Assembly: GCA_903881475.1 (NCBI GenBank)
Contig: CAIRTK010000010.1
Coordinates: forward strand, 1-64,000
Reading direction: 5' to 3'
Length of the DNA stretch: 64,000 bases
Source of the DNA: an uncultured Opitutia bacterium
Lineage (GTDB): Bacteria; Verrucomicrobiota; Verrucomicrobiia; Opitutales; Opitutaceae
In this document: piece after piece, positions 2,404 to 55,951 of the stretch
How the letters are laid out: each line of letters starts with the position of its first letter
How positions within the stretch are numbered: position 1 is the stretch's first letter
The notes under the pieces: model-generated
What the model was told of the DNA's origin: nothing
What the model saw: the letters and a program-made list of their open reading frames with translations, nothing else
Database searches by the model: none
Translations under genes and position numbers: made by a program

Positions 2404-5400
2404 ATGATCAACCGCATCATCGCCTGGTCCCTGCACCATCGCTTCCTGGTCATCAGCGGCTTTCTCGCGCTCTGCGCCTGGGGCGTAGTTGCGCTCAAGC
2501 GCGTCCCCATCGACGCCATTCCCGACCTCTCGGAAAACCAGGTCATCGTCTACGCCGACTGGCCGGGCCGCAGCCCGCAGGAGGTCGAGGACCAGATCAC
2601 CTATCCGCTCAGCTCCGCCCTGCAGGGCCTGGCCGGCGTGAAATCCGTCCGCGCCACGTCCATGTTCGGGTTCTCCTTCCTCACGGTCATCTTCGAGGAC
2701 CAGGCCGATCCGTACTTCTCCCGCACGCGCGTGCTCGAGCGGCTCAATTCCCTCGGTACCCTCCTGCCCGCGGAGGTCACCGCCCGCCTCGGGCCCGACG
2801 CCACCGGCTTGGGCTGGGTTTACCAGTATTATCTCGATGACGAATCCGGCACGCAGGACCTCGGCTCGCTGCGCGCCCTGCAGGATACCTTCATCCACCA
2901 CCAGCTGGCCGGGGTGCCGGGCGTCGCCGAGGTCGCCAGCGTGGGCGGCTTCGTCCGCCAGTGGCAGGTCGAGGTCTCCGCCCTGAAACTCCGGCAGTAC
3001 GGCGTCATGCTCGGCGAGGTGATGGACGCCGTCGCGCAGAGCAACCGCAACGTCGGCGGCAAGACGATCGACGAGAACGGCGCCGAGTTCATCGTCCGCG
3101 GCCTCGGCCTCGTGCACAGCACCGCGGACCTCGAGTCCATCGTCATCCAGCCGCGCAACGGCATCCCGCTCTACCTGCGGGACATCGCCACCGTCCGCAT
3201 CGGCGGCGACTTCCGCCGCGGTGCGCTCGACGTCAACGGCCGCGAGGTCGTCGGCGGCATCGTCGTCATGCGCTACGGGGAAAACGCCTGGCGCGTGATC
3301 CAGGACGTCAAGGCCCGCCTCGCCGCACTCGCGCCCGGACTGCCCCCAGGCGTGACGGTCCGCCCGTTCTACGACCGCAGCGACCTGATCGGCCGCGCCA
3401 TCGACACACTCAAGCACGCCCTCGCCGAGGAAATCCTCCTCGTGACGCTCGCGCACATCCTCTTCCTCTTCCACTTCCGCAGCATCCTGATCGTCACGCT
3501 GCCGCTGCCAGCGTCGCTGCTGATCGCGTTCATCCTCATGGACCGGTTCGGCATCCCGTCGCACATTATGTCGCTCACCGGCATCGCCATCTCCATCGGC
3601 GTGCTGGTGGACGCCGGCATCGTCATGACGGAAAATGTCATCCGCCACTGCGAGCGCGCCGAGGAGCATCTGCGGCGGCGGCTGACCCCGGGCGAGGTTT
3701 TCACGCAGACCCTCGAAGCCGCGACGCAGGTCGGCCGGCCGATGTTTTTCTCGATGATGATCATCATCCTCGCCTTCGTGCCGGTGTTCCTGCTTACCGG
3801 CCAGGAGGGAAAGCTGTTCCACCCGCTCGCCTACACGAAGTCGTTCGCGCTCATCGGTGCCGTGCTGCTCGCCGTCACCGCTGTCCCCGTGTTCTGCACG
3901 CTGCTGGTCCGCGGGCCTTTCCAGCCCGAGAGCAAGAACTGGCTCATGCGCGGCTTGCTCCGGGTCTACGATCCCGTACTCGACTGGGCGCTGACCCAAC
4001 GCCGGACCGTCCTCGGCCTCGCCGGCGGCCTGCTGACGGTGTCCGCCGTCATCGCCTTCGGCCTGCCCCGCGCGGTCAACGCGCGGCTGCCGGCCGCGGT
4101 TGCCCGCCACACCCGCGGATTCGGCAGCGAATTCATGCCGACGCTGGAGGAGGGCTCACTGCTCTTCATGCCCGTGCTGCTGCCCGCCACCTCCCTCACC
4201 GAGGTCCAGCGCATCATGAGCTGGCAGGACAAGGTCATCCGCCAGGTGCCGGAGGTCGCATCCGTCGCCGGCAAGCTCGGCCGTTCCGACTCCGCCACCG
4301 ATCCGGCCCCCACCGAGATGATCGAGACCACGATCATGCTCAAGCCGCCGGCCGAGTGGCGGCCCGGCCTGACCAAGCAGCAGCTCATCGCCGAGTTGTC
4401 CGCCAAGCTGATGAACGTGCCCGGCTATGTGCCCGGCTTTCTCCAGCCGATCGAGAACCGGATCCTGATGACGAGCACCGGCATCCGCGCCCAGGTCGGC
4501 GTGAAGATCTTCGGCGACAACCTCGACGCCCTCCAGCAGAAGGCCTTCGAGGTGCAACGCGTCGTCGAGCAGGTGCAGGGCGCCACCGGTGTCGCGCCGT
4601 CGCGTGTGCAGGGCAAGCCCTACCTCGAGATCGCGGTCCGCCGCGAGGATCTCGGGCGCTACGGCCTGCGCGTCGATGATGTCCTGCGCTATGTCGAGAC
4701 CGGCCTCGGCGGCGTCACCGTCGGCACCACGCTGCGGGGCCGCGAACGCTGGCCACTGCAGGTGCGGCTCGAGCAGGCGGACCGCGCGGATATCGACAAG
4801 CTCGGCGAACTCCCGCTCGCCACCCCGTCCGGCGCCGCCATCCAGCTCCGGCAGGTCGCCGACATCCGGCGCGTGACTGGGCCCAACGAGATCTCCAGCG
4901 AAAACGGCCGGCTGCGGGTCTTCGTGCAGGCCAACGTCGGCGACCGCGACCTCGGGAGCTTCGTCGCGGAGATCAAGGAGCGCATCGCCCGCGACGTGAA
5001 ACTCGATCCCGGCATGACCATCGAGTACTCCGGCCAATACGAGCACCAGCTCCGCGCGCGGCAGACCCTGCTCTACGTCTTCCCCGCCGTGCTCGCCATC
5101 ATCTTCATCCTGCTCGTCGTGACCTTCCACTCGGCCGCGGAGGCCGCGCACGTGCTCCTCGCCGTGCCGTTCGCCCTGACCGGCGGCGTGCTGCTGCAGG
5201 CCGCCCTGGGCTTCCCGTTCAGCGTCGCCGTCTGGGTCGGCTACATCGCGCTCTTCGGCACCGCCATCCAGACCGGCGTCGTGATGGTCGTCTATCTCGA
5301 GGAAGCGGTCGCCAAAAAACGCGCCGAGCACAACGGCACCCTGACCCGCTCCGAGTTGATTGCCGCGGTCAAGGCAGGCGCCCGGCTCCGGCTCCGGCCG

Positions 5401-18748: not shown

Positions 18749-18920
18749 TTGGCCACGGATTTCACGGATGACACGGATGGGAGTTCAAACCATCGATCCT
18801 TCTCACAGGAGGAAACAGAGGAACCTAATTCTCCTTTCCCCGTTCTCTCCGTTTCCTCCTGTAAAACTGTCAGGGTTTGTGGATTGGATTTCCTATCCGT
18901 GGCATCCGTGAAATCCGTGG
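18749..18920. repeat. Nested inverted repeats (CCACGGATTTCACGGAT outside, ACAGGAGG inside)
   Basis: The outer arms 18753-18778 and 18895-18920 are complementary over 26 bases with one mismatch. Inside them, ACAGGAGGAAACAGAGG near 18805-18821 faces CTCCGTTTCCTCCTGT ending near 18862. This two-layer structure fills the gap 18671-18985, which otherwise shows no gene. The same two motifs recur, in the opposite nesting order, at 28264-28484. Confidence 0.85.
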
Positions 18921-23737: not shown

Positions 23738-24172
23738 TTTATGTGGAACTCAGGAAATCAGGAATGAGGCAGGCCAGGACCAATCCGTTTGATGGTTAAT
23801 GGCATGGTGGAAAAATTGAGGATCAATCCATCCCGGATTCCTGCGGCCTTCATCTGGGATCTTCCAATGACGAAGAAGATGTCCTCCAATTCCTTAACCG
23901 CCTTCAGTTCAACCAGCAGGCATTTCTCGACCAGCAAATCGAGCCGGTGCTCGCCAACATCGACGCCGCGGTGCTGCACCCGAACCACCTTTTGCCGTTC
24001 ATATCCGATTCCCCGCGCCTCAAGTTCGACACTGAGTGCCGTCTCGTAGACCGACTCGATAAATCCCGGCCCCAGCGCCGTGTGCACGGCGATCGCGGCT
24101 TCGATCACCCGTCCACTCAGCTCCTTGTGACCCAGTTCATTCATCTCCCTGATTTCCTGAGTTCCACATAAA
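23738..24172. mobile_element. IR-flanked cassette carrying a GxxExxY gene
   Basis: The 25 bases at 23738-23762 (TTTATGTGGAACTCAGG...) are the exact inverse complement of 24148-24172. The two arms enclose almost nothing but one gene: its stop codon lies inside the left arm and its start is 3 bases from the right arm. The 435-bp unit sits between ftsY and nusB. A transcript across it would fold into a long stem with the gene in the loop. No transposase is present and no clear target duplication is visible. The layout matches the S23 cassette at 54.2 kb. Confidence 0.8.
23758..24144 (-). CDS. GxxExxY protein (PDDEXK_3, nuclease-like)
   Basis: 128 residues, full length for the family. The name-giving motif appears as GPGFIESVYETAL near residue 27, and the PD-(D/E)xK-like core as RLDLLVEKCLLVELKAV near residue 70 (Asp, then Glu-Leu-Lys). 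The family is common in Verrucomicrobiota, Planctomycetota and Bacteroidota and its function is unknown; the fold suggests nucleic-acid cleavage. Its Shine-Dalgarno-like GGAG straddles the inner edge of the right inverted-repeat arm and its TGA is in the left arm, so folding of the arms would directly affect its expression. Confidence 0.92.
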   Translation of the reverse strand: MNELGHKELSGRVIEAAIAVHTALGPGFIESVYETALSVELEARGIGYERQKVVRVQHRGVDVGEHRLDLLVEKCLLVELKAVKELEDIFFVIGRSQMKAAGIRDGLILNFSTMPLTIKRIGPGLPHS

Positions 24173-25160: not shown

Positions 25161-25418
25161 GCTCGAAGCTCAAAACTAGAAATCCAAAGGTAATTTCAGC
25201 AGGTGAAATACGCCGGGGAATTCAGATTCAGTAGGCAAAACTCCCTCGTTTGTCATCCTGAGCACGGCGAAGAATCCTGTTGGACAGCGTCGAAGCCTTC
25301 TGCGGAATCATTCTGGATTCTTCGCTGCGCTCAGACTCACGATCACGTTAAAGGCGCGCCTTGTTTCGAATTTCGGATTTCGTCCTCACCTTCGGATTTC
25401 GAACTTCGGGTTTCGAGC
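25161..25418. repeat. Nested inverted repeats between ribH and ribBA
   Basis: The outer arms 25161-25190 (GCTCGAAGCTC...AAATCCAAAGG) and 25389-25418 are imperfect complements of the GAAGTTCGAAATCCGAAGG class that also borders the S23 cassette. Inside lies a TCATCCTGAGC...GCGAAGAATCC / GGATTCTTCGC...GCTCAGA palindrome (core arms 25267-25277 and 25315-25325), a repeat wording widespread in bacteria. This fills the 335-base gap. No FMN riboswitch pattern is visible here. Confidence 0.75.
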
Positions 25419-25424
25419 TTCCCG

Positions 25425-28263: not shown

Positions 28264-28484
28264 TTTTTTACAGGAGTTAACGGAGGGAACTGAGGACGGA
28301 ACAAGACCTGAGTTAACCACGGATTACACGGATTCGATCAGGATAAAACCTGTCAAGGCAGTGCGCCATGGTCCTGATCCCAATTCATCTCACAGGATGC
28401 CTTTATCGTGATCGAATCCGTGTAATCCGTGGTTAAAAGCCTTGGGATCGTAGCTCTGTTTTCCCCGTTACCTCCTGTAAAAAA
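28264..28484. repeat. Two-layer inverted repeat (ACAGGAG outside, CCACGGATTACACGG inside)
   Basis: The outer arms 28264-28283 and 28465-28484 are complementary over 20 bases with one mismatch. The inner arms 28313-28347 and 28402-28436 are complementary over 35 bases with one mismatch, leaving a 54-base loop. The element fills the 403-base gap between the divergent rarA and comEC-like genes, and any promoter for either gene must lie in or beside it. The nesting order is reversed relative to 18749-18920. Confidence 0.9.
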
Positions 28485-48209: not shown

Positions 48210-49448
48210 ATGAACGACGCCCAGGAGGCCCGTGCGTTGCCGCACGGCGAGTGGTCAGCATTGGAATCCAATGCGAAGCAGGACCGCGAGTCCGACCCGC
48301 AACCAAGCACGGGTGAAAACACATCCATTCAGGGCAAAGGATTGGGCGAGCGAGCGGCCGGATGCGCCCGCGCAGCGGGCGCGCCGGCCGCCGCCGCCCT
48401 TCCTTGTCAGAATAGTAACAATTCCAACAAGACGCAGAAAAAATACCGCTTAAAACACGTTCCCGGCACCGATGGATGGTTCACCTCGAAAAGCCACAAA
48501 AGCGCAACGTGGGACCAACGGGATGAGGACACGCTTCGTCGGTGGGGTCGGCCAAGCAGTGCGGAAGCCAAGGCGGCGTTTCATCTGCGGCTCAACATTG
48601 CGGCTTTCGTCGAGCATTGGGGCCGCAATCACTGTCTGTTCTTTACCGTCACAGATGAATCCAATCTCCATCCCACACAGTTCGCTCGGCGGTGGAATAG
48701 CTACTTGGTCCGCAATGGGGCATGGATCGTTAGTTTCATCCGCGTCCTGGAGCCGCAAAGGCAGGGCCGTCCCCATTACCACCTCCTCGTTGCCGTGGAA
48801 TGGGATACACGTGCCAATTCCTTCAACTGGCAGGCTTTTGATGCGTGCCAGCAGGAACGGAGGACAAACGGCCCCACTGCTCTCTTCCGCGAGCTGCGCG
48901 CCCGCTACAAGTCTTCGGCTGCGCCTGAACTCGTCGCCCTGTGGTCACTGCTACGAAAGGTGCTGCCGCGTTACGGGCTGGGCCGAGCTGAATTGTTGCC
49001 GCTGCGGAAGGGCAAGGAAGCCATCTCCGTATACGTCGGGAAGTACCTCGAAGCGGGCCTCACGTTACGGAAGCACTCGTGGAAAGGCTGCCGCCGGGTG
49101 GAGTTTGATCGGCGCGCAAAAAACGCGTGGTTGGTCTGCTCTCGGGTCTTTGCATGGCATTCACCCGGAGCTAAAGCCTGGCGCGCTCGTGTCGGGCAGC
49201 TCGCAGCCTCACTCGGAGCCGTGGACATGAAGGGCATTCGTCGCCGTCTTGGCGTGCGGTGGGCCTATCACTTGCGCGAAACCATTACGCTCGGAAACGA
49301 AGAGGACTGGTCGCTGCTCCTCTCAATGCTGCAGACGCAAACGGCGCCCCTGCCAAGGGACCGTCGTTGGAACGCCTGTCTGCCCGCACCCATGCCTCTG
49401 TCCAGCATCGCGACATTTTGCGCGATGAAGAACGGCCGCTGCGCCTGA
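48210..49448 (+). CDS. HUH-endonuclease replication initiator (rolling-circle Rep)
   Basis: 412 residues from the ATG at 48210, preceded by CGGAGGG at 48196-48202. Motif 1 is LFFTVTDESNLHP; the HUH motif is PHYHLLVAV with His189 and His191; the catalytic tyrosine motif is VYVGKYLEAG with Tyr275 and Tyr279 separated by three residues. This order and spacing match rolling-circle Rep proteins of the ORF2/G2P-like group. It would nick the element origin and stay bound to the 5' end. The first 90 residues are low-complexity; the last 30 read over the start of the HTH frame and may not be conserved. No origin is obvious. Confidence 0.85.
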   Translation: MNDAQEARALPHGEWSALESNAKQDRESDPQPSTGENTSIQGKGLGERAAGCARAAGAPAAAALPCQNSNNSNKTQKKYRLKHVPGTDGWFTSKSHKSATWDQRDEDTLRRWGRPSSAEAKAAFHLRLNIAAFVEHWGRNHCLFFTVTDESNLHPTQFARRWNSYLVRNGAWIVSFIRVLEPQRQGRPHYHLLVAVEWDTRANSFNWQAFDACQQERRTNGPTALFRELRARYKSSAAPELVALWSLLRKVLPRYGLGRAELLPLRKGKEAISVYVGKYLEAGLTLRKHSWKGCRRVEFDRRAKNAWLVCSRVFAWHSPGAKAWRARVGQLAASLGAVDMKGIRRRLGVRWAYHLRETITLGNEEDWSLLLSMLQTQTAPLPRDRRWNACLPAPMPLSSIATFCAMKNGRCA

Positions 49449-49603
49449 AAGACATCGCCGCCGAAACAAACGTGTCCGAAAAGACCGTGCGGCGTTGGAT
49501 TGATCTTCGCGGCTTGCCGTCCAAGAAAATGGGCGGCCTGCGAATCGTACGGAAGTGCGACCTGCTCGCCTTCCTCAACCAGCAGCCCGCAACCCGGAAA
49601 TAA
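49259..49603 (+). CDS. HTH protein, candidate excisionase or regulator
   Basis: Up to 114 residues in a frame shifted from rep and overlapping its last 190 bases; the start is uncertain (GTG 49259 is the first). The C-terminal 55 residues are a MerR/Xis-like winged HTH: RLKDIAAETNVSEKTVRRWIDLRGLPSKKMGGLRIVRKCDLLAFLNQQ. Such proteins typically act as excisionase or direct binding near att sites. Its stop TAA (49601-49603) lies within the Shine-Dalgarno region TAAGGAG of int, 8 bases before the int start, so HTH and int are translationally linked. Confidence 0.75.
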   Translation: MGLSLARNHYARKRRGLVAAPLNAADANGAPAKGPSLERLSARTHASVQHRDILRDEERPLRLKDIAAETNVSEKTVRRWIDLRGLPSKKMGGLRIVRKCDLLAFLNQQPATRK

Positions 49604-49611
49604 GGAGCCCT

Positions 49612-50898
49612 ATGTACCAACGCATTTTCAAGCAAAAGGGCAGTCGCGTCTATCGTGGTCGTTATCGCCTCGGCGATGATCTCAAAATTTATGACGTGTC
49701 ATTGGGCACGCAGAAGAAACACGTCGCCCAGGCCATCCTCAAGAAACTGGTCCGTGAAAAGGAAGAGGAGCTGGCCGGACTGCTCGCGCCAAAAGCTCTG
49801 CGGGATGCAGCCCAAAAGCCCATTGCCGACCATCTGGCCGACTATGTGGCAGACCTGACTGCCATGCAGCGCTCCCGGAAGCATCTCGCTTACACCCGCA
49901 ACCGCATCGGACGACTCTGCGAAGAGTGCGGCTGGCAATTACTACGCGACATATCCTCGGACGCGTTCAATCGCTGGCGGGCGCTCCAAACAATCGGACC
50001 AAAGACCTGCAACGAGTACCTCGGGCATGTCTCCGCTTTCCTGACGTGGCTGCAAAAGCACGGGCACCTGACCCATCACCCGCTCAAGACGGTGGCCAAA
50101 GCAGAGACCAAGGGCTTTGAACGCTGTGTCCGCCGGGCGTTATCTGACGCCGAACTGGGCCGGATGATGAAGTCTCCTGACGGCAGGGGTCTGATCTACT
50201 TCCTCGCCGCTTTCACGGGTCTCCGTAAGGGCGAAATCCGGTCTCTCCTTTGGGTGGACCTTCATCTCGACGGACCGCGCACGTTCATCGCGGTCCGGGC
50301 GGCGACAACCAAGAATAAGAAAACTGCACGCCAACCCCTCGTCCCGAGCCTTGCGGCCGCGCTGAGGGCCTTCCGTGATCAGAAGCAAGCCACCCAGGGC
50401 AAAGTGTTTCGACTTGGCGTGCCCTTGGCCCGGTCCTTCCGGAAGGACCTCTTCACGGGCAAAATTCCGTACTTGGATGAGCTGGGCCGGCGCGTGGATT
50501 TCCATGCCTTGCGGCACACGTTCGCCACGATGCTCCAACGTGCCGGCGTCCCGCCCCGGGTCATCATGGAGCTGATGCGGCATAGCGATCTGCGGCTGTC
50601 GAGCACCACCTACACGGACACCACCTGTTTGCCGCTTTATGCCGAGGCGGAAAAACTGACTGCGTTTCTACCTTCCCCTGTAGCTTCCCCAAAATCTGAC
50701 AAAACCCGTCCAGGGGAAGGTAAACCTGTCCAAATCGAAGCGTTGGCGGAGGTTGGTGAAATCGTTGCTTTGTCCCCTGAAACGAACGACTTGGCCAACG
50801 TTGTCCCGGACTGGGACAATCTGAAATTGGCGGAGAGGGAGGGATTCGAACCCCCGGTAACCTTGCGGCTACACGTGCTTTCCAAGCACGCGCATTAG
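49612..50898 (+). CDS. int: Tyrosine site-specific integrase
   Basis: 428 residues from MYQRIFKQKG (ATG 49612, with AAGGAG upstream). It has a SAM-like core-binding domain (ADYVADLTAMQRSRKHLAYTRNRI...) and a catalytic domain with Arg205 (TGLRKGEI), Lys in TTKNKK, His298-x-x-Arg301 (HALRHTF), His324 (MRHSD) and nucleophile Tyr334 (TTYTDT). The last residues LAEREGFEPPVTLRLHVLSKHAH are translated from the tRNA gene itself, showing that integration joined the gene to chromosomal DNA. In the circle the tail would be the 63 codons at 48004-48192 instead, giving 476 residues. Confidence 0.93.
   Translation: MYQRIFKQKGSRVYRGRYRLGDDLKIYDVSLGTQKKHVAQAILKKLVREKEEELAGLLAPKALRDAAQKPIADHLADYVADLTAMQRSRKHLAYTRNRIGRLCEECGWQLLRDISSDAFNRWRALQTIGPKTCNEYLGHVSAFLTWLQKHGHLTHHPLKTVAKAETKGFERCVRRALSDAELGRMMKSPDGRGLIYFLAAFTGLRKGEIRSLLWVDLHLDGPRTFIAVRAATTKNKKTARQPLVPSLAAALRAFRDQKQATQGKVFRLGVPLARSFRKDLFTGKIPYLDELGRRVDFHALRHTFATMLQRAGVPPRVIMELMRHSDLRLSSTTYTDTTCLPLYAEAEKLTAFLPSPVASPKSDKTRPGEGKPVQIEALAEVGEIVALSPETNDLANVVPDWDNLKLAEREGFEPPVTLRLHVLSKHAH
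50672..50699 (+). repeat. Direct repeat upstream of attR (candidate integrase arm site)
   Basis: This partner of 48068-48095 (25 of 28 identical) lies 145 bp before the core in attR and inside the int coding region. Binding of integrase or the HTH protein here is inferred from position only. Confidence 0.7.
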
Positions 50899-50917
50899 AC
50901 CACTCTGCCACCTCTCC
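50828..50917 (-). tRNA. tRNA-Ser (anticodon GGA)
   Basis: On the minus strand the gene begins GGAGAGGTGGCAGAGTGG and ends in CCGCCA with encoded CCA. The acceptor stem GGAGAGG/CCTCTCC pairs fully, the anticodon arm CGTGC-TTGGAAA-GCACG gives GGA, a long variable arm (TGTAGCCGCAAGGTTA) marks serine, and the T-loop is TTCGAAT. The T-loop and 3' half double as attR of the integrated element; the 3' half was supplied by the element and restores a functional tRNA. It decodes UCC and UCU. Confidence 0.96.
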
Positions 50918-52039: not shown

Positions 52040-53098
52040 ATGCCCCTGACCGAAGACCTGCCGTTTCTCGTCCTGCGCCGCACCTGGCAGCCGGTGGCCA
52101 ATTCCGCCGATCTCCCGGCCGGCCGCCTGATGGGCTACACCTTGCTCGATATCCCGCTGCTGGTCGCGCGTTTCACCGATGGCCGGCTGCTCGCCGCCGA
52201 CCCCGCCTGCCCGCACAAGGGCGCCAGGCTCACCACCGGCTGCATCCGCCATGGCGAACTCGTCTGCCCGTACCACGGCTGGCGTTTCGACGCCGCCGGC
52301 GCCTGCCAGTCGATTCCGTCGCTGGTCGATGCCCACCCCGACAAACTCGCCCTCTCCCATCTGCACACCTACGCCATCCAGGAACGCTATGGCCTGGTCT
52401 GGGTGAAACTCGATCCCGCGCCGCTGGCCGACGGCCGGCCCCACGAGCTTCCGGCGGTGCCGGAATTCGAAAATCCGGCCTGGAGCTATGTCATGGGCCC
52501 ACCCACGCCGTTTTCAGCGGGCTGGCGCCGCGAGGTCGAGAACTACCTCGATATGACCCATTTCGCCTTCGCCCACGCCGACACGCTGGGCAAGGCCGCC
52601 GATTACCGCGTCCCGCCGATGGACATCCGCACCCTGCCCGATGGCGGTTTTCAGATGGATGCCCCGTTCCCCGCGCTCGACACGCCCCACGAGCCGCCCG
52701 GCAAACTCCAAAGCGCGCATCACCGGCAGCAGCGCTGCCACCTGCCCAATTTCACCACTATCCGCCAAAGTTTTGCCGATGGCGACGAGCGCGTGCTCGT
52801 GCATATCCCGTCGCCCAACACCCGCGAAAGCTGCACCGTCTTTTGGTCGCTCGCGATCTCCCCCGGTTTCCGCGGACCGCCCCCCGCCGCCCAGGTGGAA
52901 TTCGCCATCAAGGTCCTCGATGAGGACCGCCTCATGTGCGAAAACCAGGTTCCCGCCGAGGTGCCCATCAATCCCGCGCGCGGCGGCTGGGGCGTCCTCG
53001 TCATGCCCGGAGACACCCTGGCCAATACCTTCCAAAAGCAGCTCCGCCGCTGGCTGCTCGCTGAGGCGGGCGCGCCGAAGTTGGGCGATGGAAGTTAG
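52040..53098 (+). CDS. Rieske-type ring-hydroxylating/O-demethylating oxygenase, alpha subunit
   Basis: 352 residues from MPLTEDLPFLVLRRTWQPV (ATG 52040; 52028 is possible). The Rieske 2Fe-2S motif is CPHKGARLTTGC...CPYHGW (C-x-H and C-x2-H). The catalytic iron motif is NYLDMTHFAFAHADTLG. This resembles VanA-like and related oxygenases that insert oxygen using electrons from a reductase, which is not encoded nearby. It is divergent from an AraC regulator and followed by a MetE-like gene after 92 bases. The substrate is unknown. Confidence 0.88.
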   Translation: MPLTEDLPFLVLRRTWQPVANSADLPAGRLMGYTLLDIPLLVARFTDGRLLAADPACPHKGARLTTGCIRHGELVCPYHGWRFDAAGACQSIPSLVDAHPDKLALSHLHTYAIQERYGLVWVKLDPAPLADGRPHELPAVPEFENPAWSYVMGPPTPFSAGWRREVENYLDMTHFAFAHADTLGKAADYRVPPMDIRTLPDGGFQMDAPFPALDTPHEPPGKLQSAHHRQQRCHLPNFTTIRQSFADGDERVLVHIPSPNTRESCTVFWSLAISPGFRGPPPAAQVEFAIKVLDEDRLMCENQVPAEVPINPARGGWGVLVMPGDTLANTFQKQLRRWLLAEAGAPKLGDGS

Positions 53099-53190
53099 GA
53101 GATAGAAATCGCTCGCCGCCATAACCGCGTCCAAGAAACTCGCATTTTCCATCTTCCATCTCCCATCTTCTAACTCCCCAAGATTGATTT

Positions 53191-54207
53191 ATGTCCAAAA
53201 TCCCCTCCAAGCCCCGCATCCTCACCACCACCGTCGGCTCCTATCCCGTCCCGGACTGGCTCGCCGCCCTGCCCAGCGAACAGGCGGTGATCGATGCCAC
53301 CCGCGTCGTGTTCGACCTCCAGCGCCAGGCAGGCATCGACCTGCCGACCGACGGCGAACTCTACCGGTTTGACGTCAATCATCCCGACACCAACGGCATG
53401 ATCGAGTATTTCATCCGCCCGATGGCCGGTATCTCGTCCGTGGTCGGCCGCTCGGTCACCGAGGAATTCTCCCGCCACCATCCGATGGGCTTCCGCCGGA
53501 AGCCCGCCGGGGTCGTCACCGGCAAGCTCGGCGAGGGTTCGCTCAACCTGCTCGCCGACTGCCAGCGCGCCGCGGCAGTCGCCGGCGGCCCGTTCAAGTT
53601 CACCGTCACAAGCCCGTACATGCTCGCCCGCACGCTGCTCGACCACCACTACGGCAGTTTCGACAAGCTCACCATGGCCCTCGGCGAGGTCCTCGCCGCG
53701 CAAATGCCCGGCCTGCCCGCGCCCTGCATCCAGGTCGACGAGGCCAACATCCCCGGCAATCCCGACGACGCCCCGCTCGCCGCCGCGTCGATGAACCTCC
53801 TGCTCGACCAGATCGAGGGCGAGCGCGCCGTGCATTTCTGCTTCGGCAACTATGGCGGCCAGACCATCCAGAAGGGCAACTGGCAGAAGCTCGTCGATTT
53901 CCTCAACGCGCTGCATTGCGACCACCTCGTGCTCGAACTCGCCCACCGCCCGAAGAGCGACATCGATGCGCTCAAGCAGATCGACAGGAAGATCGCCCTC
54001 GGCATCGGCGTCATCGACATCAAGGTGAACCACATCGAGACACCCGACGAAGTCGCCGCGCGCATCGAGGCCGTCGAGAAGAAGGTCGGCGAAGGCCGCG
54101 TCCGCTGGGTCCACCCCGACTGCGGCTTCTGGATGCTCAAGCGCAGCATCGCCGACCGGAAGATCGAGGCGCTGGTGCTGGGCCGGGACAAATACCTCGG
54201 GCGGTGA
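53191..54207 (+). CDS. MetE-like cobalamin-independent methyltransferase (C-terminal domain family)
   Basis: 338 residues, corresponding to the catalytic C-terminal barrel of MetE without the N-terminal half. It starts with TTTVGSYPVPDWL. The zinc ligands seem present: HFCFGNYGG (His-x-Cys), an E in LVLELAH and Cys in HPDCGFWML. Such stand-alone proteins transfer methyl groups to a thiol acceptor, not always homocysteine. Next to a Rieske oxygenase, it may handle a methylated substrate; this is a contextual guess. The S23 cassette begins five bases after its stop. Confidence 0.88.
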   Translation: MSKIPSKPRILTTTVGSYPVPDWLAALPSEQAVIDATRVVFDLQRQAGIDLPTDGELYRFDVNHPDTNGMIEYFIRPMAGISSVVGRSVTEEFSRHHPMGFRRKPAGVVTGKLGEGSLNLLADCQRAAAVAGGPFKFTVTSPYMLARTLLDHHYGSFDKLTMALGEVLAAQMPGLPAPCIQVDEANIPGNPDDAPLAAASMNLLLDQIEGERAVHFCFGNYGGQTIQKGNWQKLVDFLNALHCDHLVLELAHRPKSDIDALKQIDRKIALGIGVIDIKVNHIETPDEVAARIEAVEKKVGEGRVRWVHPDCGFWMLKRSIADRKIEALVLGRDKYLGR

Positions 54208-54211
54208 AACC

Positions 54212-54777
54212 CGAAGGTTGAAGTTCGAAATCCGAAGGAACTCTCAAGGGCTGGAATCCAGTTCGCCGCAAGTTGGCGGCGAACTGAGGGCTGGAATTAT
54301 CTCGGCTTGGTGGGAAAGAATCGGGACGTGATTGCCCAAGAGCCTTCCCGGCCTTTCGACCTCGAGGAGCGCACTTACAAGTTCGCCCTTGGCGTGCGCC
54401 GCTTGTTGAAGAACGTGCCGCGGACGATCACGGTGGAGATCGACGGAAAGCAACTGGTGCGGTCCTCGGGTTCGGTGGGTGCGAACTACCTTGAAGCCAA
54501 CGAATGCATCAGCACTCGCGATTTTGTCTATCGAATCAAGATCTGCCGCAAAGAAGCCAGGGAAAGCCGCTACTGGCTGAACTTGCTCTTCATCGAACAG
54601 GACAGCCCGTTCAACTCGGAACGCCTCGCTCTTGCCGACGAGGCCGACCAGCTCGCCCGGATTTTTGGCGCCATTGTCCGCAAGAAAGAGTCGCCCGTCA
54701 CACCCCAACCTGCCACCAAGCCATAGGCCTTCGGCAATGAATTGAACCTTCCTTCGGATTTCGAACTTCAACCTTCG
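54212..54777. mobile_element. IR-flanked cassette carrying an S23 four-helix-bundle gene
   Basis: The 29 bases at 54212-54240 (CGAAGGTTGAAGTTCGAAAT...) are the exact inverse complement of 54749-54777. Inside the left end, CAGTTCGCCGC and GCGGCGAACTG (near 54258-54286) form another hairpin. The only gene is S23-type. The 566-bp unit separates the MetE-like gene from the Gfo/Idh gene. The same architecture (paired complementary ends with an S23 frame in the loop) is known for intervening sequences in 23S rRNA genes, but this copy is not in rRNA. Confidence 0.8.
54328..54726 (+). CDS. Four-helix-bundle protein of the S23 (23S rRNA intervening-sequence) family
   Basis: About 132 residues from the GTG at 54328 (a TTG at 54307 is an alternative). 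The core is typical: YKFALGVRRLLKNVPRT, KQLVRSSGSVGANYLEAN (the Q/R-RS-SV-AN motif), FVYRIKICRKEARESRYWL, LADEADQLARIFGAIVRK. The family (PF05635) forms pentamers of four-helix bundles, and its role is unknown. In several bacteria the same gene sits inside 23S rRNA intervening sequences. Here it is enclosed by 29-bp perfect inverted repeats. Confidence 0.9.
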   Translation: MIAQEPSRPFDLEERTYKFALGVRRLLKNVPRTITVEIDGKQLVRSSGSVGANYLEANECISTRDFVYRIKICRKEARESRYWLNLLFIEQDSPFNSERLALADEADQLARIFGAIVRKKESPVTPQPATKP

Positions 54778-54802
54778 AGCTTTTCCGCCCTACTCGCGTT
54801 CC

Positions 54803-55849
54803 ATGTTAAATGTCGCCTTAATCGGCTGCGGCGTCATCGCCCAATTTCATCTGCGCGGCCTTGCCAAGCTCGCCACCGCCCGCGCCACCGCCGTGTGCGA
54901 TGTCCGCGCCGACGTCGCCCGGCAGACCGCCGCGGAATTTGGCGTGCCGCACTGGACCGTCAACGCCTCGGAGATCTTTGCCGACCCGGCGATCGACGCC
55001 GTCATCCTCGCCTTGCCCGCCAACCTGCGCACCGCGCTCGCAATCGAGGCGTTCCGGCACGGCAAGCACGTCCTGACCGAAAAGCCCGTCGCGATGAACG
55101 CCGCCGAGGTGCGCGCGATGCTCGCGGTGCAGGGCGACCGCACCGGCGCGGTGTGCTCGTCGCGGTTTCACAACTTCGAATCTGCCCGCGCCGCCCGGGA
55201 ATTTCTCCGCACCGGTGCGCTCGGCCCACTGCGCACGATCACCTGCCGCGGCGTCAATCCCGCCGGCCCGCCCTTCAAGAATCCGCCGGCCTGGCGACTG
55301 CGCAGGGATCTCAATGGCGGCGGCATCTTCGTCAACTGGGGCTGCTACGATCTCGACTACCTGTTCGGCCTGCTCGACTTCAAGCTGACACCGCAAGTCG
55401 CGCTGGCACGCACCTGGCAGGTCGCGCCGCAGTACGCCGCGTATGCGGCGCCGGGCTCGGACGGTGAAACGCATGTCGCCGCGCTGGTCACGTTCGCCGA
55501 GGGTTGTGTGCTCAACTACGAGCGCGCAGAATTCTCGACGCTGCCGCCGGACAACCACTGGCAGATCACCGGCGAGCGCGGCACGCTCACGCTGCAGATG
55601 CTCAAGGCCAAGTCCGCGAACATCGTGCTCACCGAGCCTGACGCCGGGAAGGGCACGCGGACCCGGGTGATTTGGGAAGGCGACGAATCCGTTTTGAACG
55701 AGCACGACGGCGTCCCCGCCGATTTCGTCGATGCGATCCTGCAAAAGCGGAAGCCACTGACCTCGCTGCAGGATTCCCTCCTCTTCGCCCGCGTCGCCGA
55801 CGCCGTCTACGCCTCCGCCGCCAGCGGCAAGCCCGTCATTTTCGACTAA
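54803..55849 (+). CDS. Gfo/Idh/MocA-family oxidoreductase
   Basis: 348 residues. It has an N-terminal Rossmann motif VALIGCGVIAQFHLRGLAKL, then FRHGKHVLTEKPVAMNAAEVRAM, the EKP dinucleotide-binding signature (catalytic Lys). The C-terminal substrate domain is beta-rich. It probably oxidises or reduces a sugar or cyclitol with NAD(P). It lies behind the S23 cassette and ahead of the convergent ceramidase-like gene; likely part of a carbohydrate-handling cluster. Confidence 0.92.
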   Translation: MLNVALIGCGVIAQFHLRGLAKLATARATAVCDVRADVARQTAAEFGVPHWTVNASEIFADPAIDAVILALPANLRTALAIEAFRHGKHVLTEKPVAMNAAEVRAMLAVQGDRTGAVCSSRFHNFESARAAREFLRTGALGPLRTITCRGVNPAGPPFKNPPAWRLRRDLNGGGIFVNWGCYDLDYLFGLLDFKLTPQVALARTWQVAPQYAAYAAPGSDGETHVAALVTFAEGCVLNYERAEFSTLPPDNHWQITGERGTLTLQMLKAKSANIVLTEPDAGKGTRTRVIWEGDESVLNEHDGVPADFVDAILQKRKPLTSLQDSLLFARVADAVYASAASGKPVIFD

Positions 55850-55860
55850 AGGCAGATTTT

Positions 55861-55939
55861 AACCACGAAGCACACGAAGGCCAAGCCAAGGCATTCGAAC
55901 TCAAATTCCGAAGGTTCGATCTTCGTGTGCTTCGTGGTT
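55861..55939. repeat. Inverted repeat AACCACGAAGCACACGAAG
   Basis: The 19 bases at 55861-55879 are exactly complementary to 55921-55939. The loop contains TTCGAACTCAAATTCCGAAGG, the motif that also forms the S23 cassette arms. It lies between convergent genes (Gfo/Idh and the ceramidase-like protein). Confidence 0.9.
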
Positions 55940-55951
55940 AATAAAACCGGC

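Follow-up and report, generated by a model that had tools for sequence, protein, structure and literature searches.

Genes of the S23 family are known from intervening sequences (IVSs) of 23S rRNA, and an S23 gene lying between protein genes, within perfect inverted repeats, raises the question of what kind of element it belongs to and how its two ends are kept complementary. The case considered here lies in a 64,000-nt stretch of contig CAIRTK010000010.1 from an uncultured Opitutia bacterium (hereafter, the window). It had been described from its letters as an S23 four-helix-bundle gene enclosed by perfect 29-bp inverted repeats outside rRNA, possibly the free form from which rRNA insertions arise. 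The features of the window to which we refer are as follows.

53191..54207, + strand: upstream, co-directional MetE-like core gene (PF01717, profile match)
54212..54240, + strand: 5' arm, 29 nt, degenerate heptamers, with an imperfect extension from 54199
54260..54285, + strand: small, GC-rich inner hairpin between the 5' arm and the S23 gene
54307..54726, + strand: gene for an S23 / 23S rRNA-IVS-type four-helix-bundle protein (TIGR02436, PF05635); a TTG start is shown, and the start is uncertain
54749..54777, + strand: 3' arm, perfectly reverse-complementary to the 5' arm, with an imperfect extension to 54790
54803..55849, + strand: downstream, co-directional Gfo/Idh/MocA oxidoreductase gene (profile match)
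25389..25421, - strand: gene-less copy of the window arm family, elsewhere in the window

The 5' arm (54212-54240) reads CGAAGGTTGAAGTTCGAAATCCGAAGGAA, and 54749-54777 is its perfect reverse complement; when mismatches are tolerated, the arms lengthen to 54199-54240 and 54749-54790, with 38 of 42 positions paired. This inverted repeat scores 32, whereas the maximum among 2000 Markov shuffles was 17. Written as heptamers, the arm consists of CGAAGGT, TGAAGTT, CGAAATC and CGAAGGA, and it matches itself at lag 7 in 13 of 22 positions (P = 0.012, shuffles, lags 2-14). The element fills the space between two genes of one orientation that are probably co-transcribed: its 5' arm begins 4 nt past the MetE-like stop codon and is separated by 66 nt from the annotated S23 start, the Gfo/Idh/MocA gene begins 25 nt past the 3' arm, and all three genes lie on the same strand. 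No sigma-70-like promoter was found in a simple scan of 54100-54900.

The open reading frame at 54307-54726 exceeded the cut-offs of both family profiles (TIGR02436, 61.3 bits against 24; PF05635, 42.5 bits against 33.8), and its AlphaFold2 model is a four-helix bundle with a mean pLDDT of 87.9. The structures nearest to the model were the S23-family chains 2rld (Z 15.8) and 2gsc (Z 15.0); a sequence search of the PDB with an S23 alignment likewise matched these two alone. For this family (S23 / TIGR02436), the structure paper on Xcc0516 reportedly announces a homopentamer in its title, and we know of no established function. The model also aligns with Avd of diversity-generating retroelements, at a Z of 11.4 to 12.0 that is common among helical bundles, and the part of PMC10053308 available to us likens PF05635 to Avd. 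Since Rfam matches nothing in the window except a tRNA (50831-50917), the S23 element is located outside rRNA, and the source assembly gave no match to 23S/LSU rRNA. The arms, the two profiles, the model and the Rfam search thus confirm the original prediction as far as the gene, its fold and its setting are concerned.

Matches to TIGR02436 are frequent among the relatives of this bacterium, occurring in 126 of 150 Opitutaceae genomes with up to 19 per genome. The source genome has four, and the one on contig C59 has a different arm word, AGATGGA. We scored an S23 gene as enclosed when its 5' and 3' flanks paired at a score of at least 13. The Opitutaceae set comprised the 88 of 91 loci with 250-nt flanks (3 without flanks were dropped), from 64 genomes; these loci were drawn roughly best-scoring first, with a few out of order, and are not a random sample. 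A two-domain S23 frame on contig C78 (L002, L005) was left out, and we retained three S23 genes that contain an inner stop. Arms enclosed 71 of these 88 genes. In the controls, a 5' flank paired with the 3' flank of a different locus in 1 of 78 cases within a genome and in 570 of 7578 between genomes, windows shifted by ~600 nt paired in 6 of 167, and flanks in direct orientation paired in 5 of 88.

A second set was taken from a broader range of bacteria, namely, the best 80 of 588 matches, of which 72 were used (5 duplicates and 3 loci without flanks were dropped); this sample, too, is not random. By record title it covers 17 groups: Acidobacteria, Bacteroidetes, Verrucomicrobia, Ignavibacteria, Calditrichaeota, Chlorobiota, deltaproteobacteria (in the old sense), Chloroflexi, Planctomycetes, Nitrospirae, Cyanobacteria, alpha- and gammaproteobacteria, Patescibacteria, WOR-1, Zipacnadia and a Firmicute. 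Here 61 of 72 S23 genes were enclosed, compared with 39 of 576 mispaired flanks and 2 of 133 shifted windows, and no rRNA was found in the 40 of 80 multi-group loci scanned. In the pooled sample, 132 of 160 S23 genes were enclosed versus 2 of 210 other predicted open reading frames at the same loci. An S23 gene with complementary ends between protein genes, first noted in the window, is therefore the rule in these best-hit samples rather than an oddity.

The setting of the element is equally regular. When open reading frames were called by coding bias, the gene upstream of S23 ran in its direction at 83 of 84 callable loci, and the gene downstream did so at 69 of 72. Across 68 loci the 5' arm started a median of 10 nt past the upstream stop codon and, by eye, often stopped directly 5' of the S23 start. 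We also considered in-frame insertion of S23 into other genes, which long open frames at some loci brought to mind, and rejected it; those frames look like read-through or antisense frames of GC-rich DNA.

The heptamer periodicity of the window arm recurs throughout. In the flanks of 70 Opitutaceae loci, autocorrelation reached +0.13 at lag 7 and +0.10 at lag 14, both of them negative in controls, and +0.08 at lag 21, where controls gave +0.03 to +0.05 because they carry the coding period of 3. Lags 7 and 14 were again raised in the multi-group set (70 loci). S23 arms thus read as tandem degenerate 7-nt words, of which AGTAGCG, AGGAGTC, GTTGAAA, TAAGCGA, TCAGCTT and CAGAAGT are examples. Different S23 loci of one genome rarely have a word in common (1 of 78 pairings).

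The word instead follows the protein. Among the 132 loci with an arm score of at least 13, compared across phyla in many non-independent pairs, the arm word was shared by 5 of 494 pairs with less than 35% S23 identity, 26 of 2031 at 35-45%, 52 of 2061 at 45-55%, 205 of 839 at 55-65%, 63 of 123 at 65-75% and 5 of 6 above 75%; with reversed arms as the control, the same bins in ascending order gave 7, 30, 16, 23, 5 and 3. Within Opitutaceae, pairs of loci lacking homologous flanks shared the word in 7 of 189 cases at 55-65% identity, 41 of 62 at 65-75% and 58 of 59 above 75%, against 0, 0 and 0 in the control. S23 similarity thus appears to predict the arm word even across phyla, the pairs being non-independent. 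This dependence on identity implies that the S23 gene and its arms either move as a unit or are fitted to one another, and the linkage may be mere co-inheritance.

Arms of the window type also occur without a gene. Arm copies were counted by pattern and DNA searches in the source genome and its congeners, twelve genomes in all. The 27-nt arm core, allowing up to 3 mismatches, has 20 copies in the source genome (G000), two of which are the window element, and 18 in G059; G124 and G151 have 1 each and the other eight congeners, G152 included, have 0. Of 30 arm loci that we read, 2 belong to the window element, 21 are partnered by a second arm at a distance of 44-212 nt and 7 are unpartnered. The 21 partnered loci amount to 17 distinct gene-less hairpins, whose loops are unrelated in 133 of 136 pairs and similar in 3, one of these being apparently a single hairpin present in both G000 and G059. 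Of 26 gene-less arrays of the window word, 9 lie between co-directional genes, 4 do not, 11 were called inside an open reading frame and 2 are unclear. The original prediction had listed arms widespread without any gene among the observations that would count against it; gene-less arms are indeed there, and they bear on that half of the objection only.

Any link between a cognate S23 gene and the spread of its arms is suggestive at best, since S23 proteins related to that of the window (47-63% identical, in G124, G059, G153 and G141) occur more widely than the arm copies do. A simple rule by which arrays are present wherever S23 is present was not borne out in the genomes compared: G124 carries S23, yet has 0 matches to one arm pattern and 1 to another; G154 lacks S23 at the window site, yet has 32 arm-pattern matches; and G094 has 89 matches to a TCAG-array pattern and 0 to TIGR02436. 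TCAG-type arrays are frequent in some Opitutaceae genomes, with or without TIGR02436 matches.

The MetE-like gene is present in 11 of the 12 congeners (source genome included), and what follows it differs among them. S23 is present at this site in G000, G059 and G124. G150 and G085 have a strong gene-less hairpin of another word (scores of 25 and 30), G141 has a weak one (score of 11), and G154, G153 and G152 have none by score (9, 7.5 and 6); in G015 and G107 the site is cut by contig ends. The three S23 carriers do not form a clade in a tree of the MetE-like protein, where G152 groups with G059, and S23 of G000 is 64-65% identical to those of G059 and G124, compared with 97-98% for the MetE-like protein. 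Two further gaps, counted among congeners with both flanks readable, likewise hold either little or hairpins of other words, which score at least 15 in 3 of 5 congeners at one gap and 4 of 6 at the other. The original prediction had proposed to look for relatives with an empty site, and at this locus S23 is present in some congeners and absent in others. No mobility event was seen at base resolution in these comparisons, in which the flanks are too diverged between species to fix insertion points. At the orthologous S23 element of G124 (L048, ~3050-3350), the 3' arm has grown into an extended, degenerate array whose words resemble TTCGAATTTC.

The explanation that we favor, while giving it slightly less than an even chance, is that the window element is a gene-bearing member of a dispersed family of heptamer hairpins, expressed by read-through, with arms copied at the DNA level and with S23 as the partner of its word. 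The feature would be the S23-bearing form of a hairpin in which degenerate 7-nt words, in inverted arrays, make up the arms, and gene-less arms would be the short hairpins of the same kind found across genomes, with mostly unrelated loops. Because co-direction is strict and the arms start right after the upstream stop codon, S23 is most likely expressed through read-through of the host operon. The arms would be kept complementary by copying from one to the other, through polymerase template switching in an extruded hairpin, to which slippage of the 7-nt unit would add. The S23 protein would behave as the partner of its own word, and we infer that it may bind the heptamer array.

How the arms change over time bears directly on this proposal. 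Homologous outer flanks were found in at least 2 genomes at 11 sites, with up to eleven genomes each. At one such site the paired word is TAAGCGG, TCAGCTT or TAGGCGA depending on the genome, and at a second it is AGGCTAG, GGTGATG or TAAGTTT (the last at a score of 12.5); some loci at orthologous sites pair at scores under 13. Both arms thus seem to switch word jointly. Of 180 ortholog pairs, 147 showed greater similarity between the arms within a locus than between corresponding arms of different species, an outcome favored by the choice of arms by pairing; among the nine sites in this comparison, one gave nearly equal values for both similarities.

A different keeper of the arms would be RNA. 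We consider it fairly unlikely that the element is an IVS at the mRNA level, in which the arms pair in the operon transcript, RNase III excises S23 and selection on the stem preserves complementarity. The nearly constant sense orientation of S23 to its upstream gene (83/84) and the placement of the arms at gene ends would suit such an arrangement, as would the RNA predicted for the window, which closes with a 29-bp stem and folds more stably than its shuffles do (z of -5.1). Read-through from the upstream gene, on which S23 probably depends, would be required by an mRNA-level IVS as well. In Coxiella, according to the available part of PMC4990558, an IVS with an S23 open reading frame and a 28-bp stem is cut by RNase III in vitro. 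However, gene-less hairpins with the same arms are common, and the mismatches between arms do not have the expected form. A selected sense-RNA stem should tolerate G.U mismatches more than A.C, whereas on the S23 sense strand the Opitutaceae arms have 74 G.U against 153 A.C (19 sites lean to A.C and 5 to G.U) and the multi-group arms have 81 against 87. In a very small control, the acceptor stems of 6 tRNAs, there were 39 Watson-Crick pairs, 3 G.U and 0 A.C. Given that a G.U excess is absent from both locus sets, RNA pairing does not explain how the arms are kept complementary, and the mismatches support neither a sense-RNA stem nor an RNase III-type stem in this role.

Mispaired arms also lean to A.C, if more weakly (720 G.U against 905 A.C), and composition therefore contributes to the lean. 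The A.C lean of the Opitutaceae arms (153 versus 74) is not something that template switching alone predicts. Copying at the DNA level has a further trace in two congeners, where L050 and L051 (~2500-2640) share a gene-less hairpin whose 24-nt spacer in one is the exact inversion of that in the other; the arms of the L051 copy are paired at 28 of 28 positions. Template switching between inverted repeats leads to both arm homogenization and spacer inversion (PMC8604942, in the part available), and the inverted spacer may be its signature. Taken together, the concerted arms, the spacer inversion and the missing G.U bias favor DNA-level copying, and suggest that template switching on DNA maintains the arms. 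The biases noted for the concerted-arm and mismatch comparisons slightly lower our confidence in the favored explanation.

The likeness to rRNA insertions can be read in this light. The window element shares with the Coxiella 23S rRNA IVS (PMC4990558, in part) an S23 gene, long complementary ends and a length of a few hundred nucleotides, so that it has the long-stem ends by which an IVS is recognized but not the rRNA location. It differs in lying between protein genes and in having arms of heptamer words. The idea of a free form behind rRNA insertions is upheld in that the layout exists outside rRNA, more broadly than had been claimed, and the presence and absence of S23 at one site fit it; an RNase III-type RNA stem as the means of upkeep is not supported by the mismatches. 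It is plausible that rRNA IVSs could originate from such S23 cassettes.

A conventional mobile element, with S23 or an unseen enzyme as the transposase, terminal inverted repeats as its substrate and the hairpins as its miniature inverted-repeat elements (MITEs), seems improbable to us. The occurrence of one S23 clade with its word at non-syntenic places in different phyla would be expected of it, as would 20 and 18 arm copies in two congeners against 0-1 in ten others and the different occupants of orthologous sites. MITEs, however, are non-autonomous copies with a common interior, which here holds for only 3 of 136 loop pairs, the other 133 being unrelated. The ends vary from locus to locus and drift at fixed sites, which would be unusual for recognized terminal inverted repeats: the window arm recurs at ~20 places in G000, but S23 loci of one genome share ends in 1 of 78 pairings. 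The TIGR02436 and Pfam profile searches matched no transposase domain, and the S23 family alone was found.

REPINs offer a parallel for the dispersed hairpins. As described in the available part of PMC3116915, REPIN/RAYT systems likewise combine dispersed inverted pairs of a short repeat with a protein gene beside its own, genome-distinctive type of repeat, and the 17 gene-less hairpins are themselves dispersed inverted doublets of one short repeat. The protein in that system is a REP-associated tyrosine transposase (RAYT), whereas the window protein is an S23 four-helix bundle; at this locus the enclosed gene is S23 and the element contains no RAYT gene. The arms here are, moreover, tandem 7-nt arrays with unrelated loops, and the gene lies inside the arm pair. 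The relation between S23 and its word may thus resemble that between RAYTs and REPINs, with another protein and another kind of repeat.

Least probable, and already disfavored, is the proposal that S23 is a passenger in operon gaps that gather hairpin-forming repeats by mutation: congeners do carry hairpins of other words in the same gaps, gene-less arrays are abundant in some genomes and GxxExxY is one other family of small operon genes with such enclosure, but at the same loci arms surround 2 of 210 other open reading frames, compared with 132 of 160 S23 genes, and S23 identity predicts the word across phyla.

The GxxExxY case is represented in the window itself. An open reading frame at 23758-24144 (- strand), which matches PDDEXK_3 (PF13366) and has a GxxExxY motif by eye, sits within perfect 25-bp inverted arms (23738-24172) between FtsY-like and NusB-like neighbors (by eye). 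Among 30 GxxExxY loci with flanks (29 found via TIGR04256 and that of the window), 26 have paired arms, compared with 1 of 58 shifted windows, and their flanks are raised at lag 9 (+0.05) versus +0.02 at lag 7. Mispaired GxxExxY arms also pair in 212 of 870 cases because their words are alike. Arms of 9-nt words around the gene of a PD-(D/E)XK-type protein suggest a class wider than S23.

Heptamer repeats themselves have a separate history. A title by Vioque (1997) reportedly describes the cyanobacterial STRRs as heptamer repeats, and we know of no established mechanism by which heptamer repeats spread. TAACTGA repeats of Beggiatoaceae (PMC4679880) and heptanucleotide elements of Geobacter metallireducens (PMC2700814) belong to the same kind. 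As far as the available parts of these accounts go, such repeats are tandem 7-nt words in mostly intergenic positions, a description that also fits the S23 arms, and some words are similar in letters to S23 arm words, the reverse complement of TAACTGA being TCAGTTA. The accounts, in the same parts, draw no tie to S23 genes or to paired arms enclosing a gene; "four helix," "S23" and "23S" are absent from PMC4679880 and "S23" from PMC2700814. We found no report of an association between S23 and heptamers in the open-licence literature, outside which most subscription papers lie.

The co-occurrence of S23 genes with heptamer repeats, with the word tracking the protein, joins two old puzzles of bacterial genomes and makes of them one testable question, whether S23 binds, copies or protects its own word. 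A bolder and, to us, doubtful extension would be that S23 and GxxExxY are the partner proteins of parallel systems that both write and disperse inverted arrays of degenerate words (of 7 and 9 nt, respectively), with word and protein co-evolving as a code, with bacterial heptamer repeats such as STRR and TAACTGA as the footprint of S23 and with 23S IVSs as rare cassettes that landed in helices of rRNA.

The window contains several further structures. Hairpins with no evident gene lie at 28313-28436, 18753-18920 and 55859-55941, with arms that are 86-100% paired and, by eye, words of the CACGGATTA and CACGAAGCA type at 9-nt spacing. Upstream of the MetE-like gene, at 53091-53180, there is an imperfect gene-less hairpin with GATGGAAGATGG-type words (by eye), which also flank another S23 gene of the source genome (L001). 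At 48210-50917, a tyrosine recombinase and a REP_ORF2-G2P-like open reading frame (25.9 bits, where Pfam requires 27.8) adjoin the tRNA, and this region is perhaps a small integrated element.
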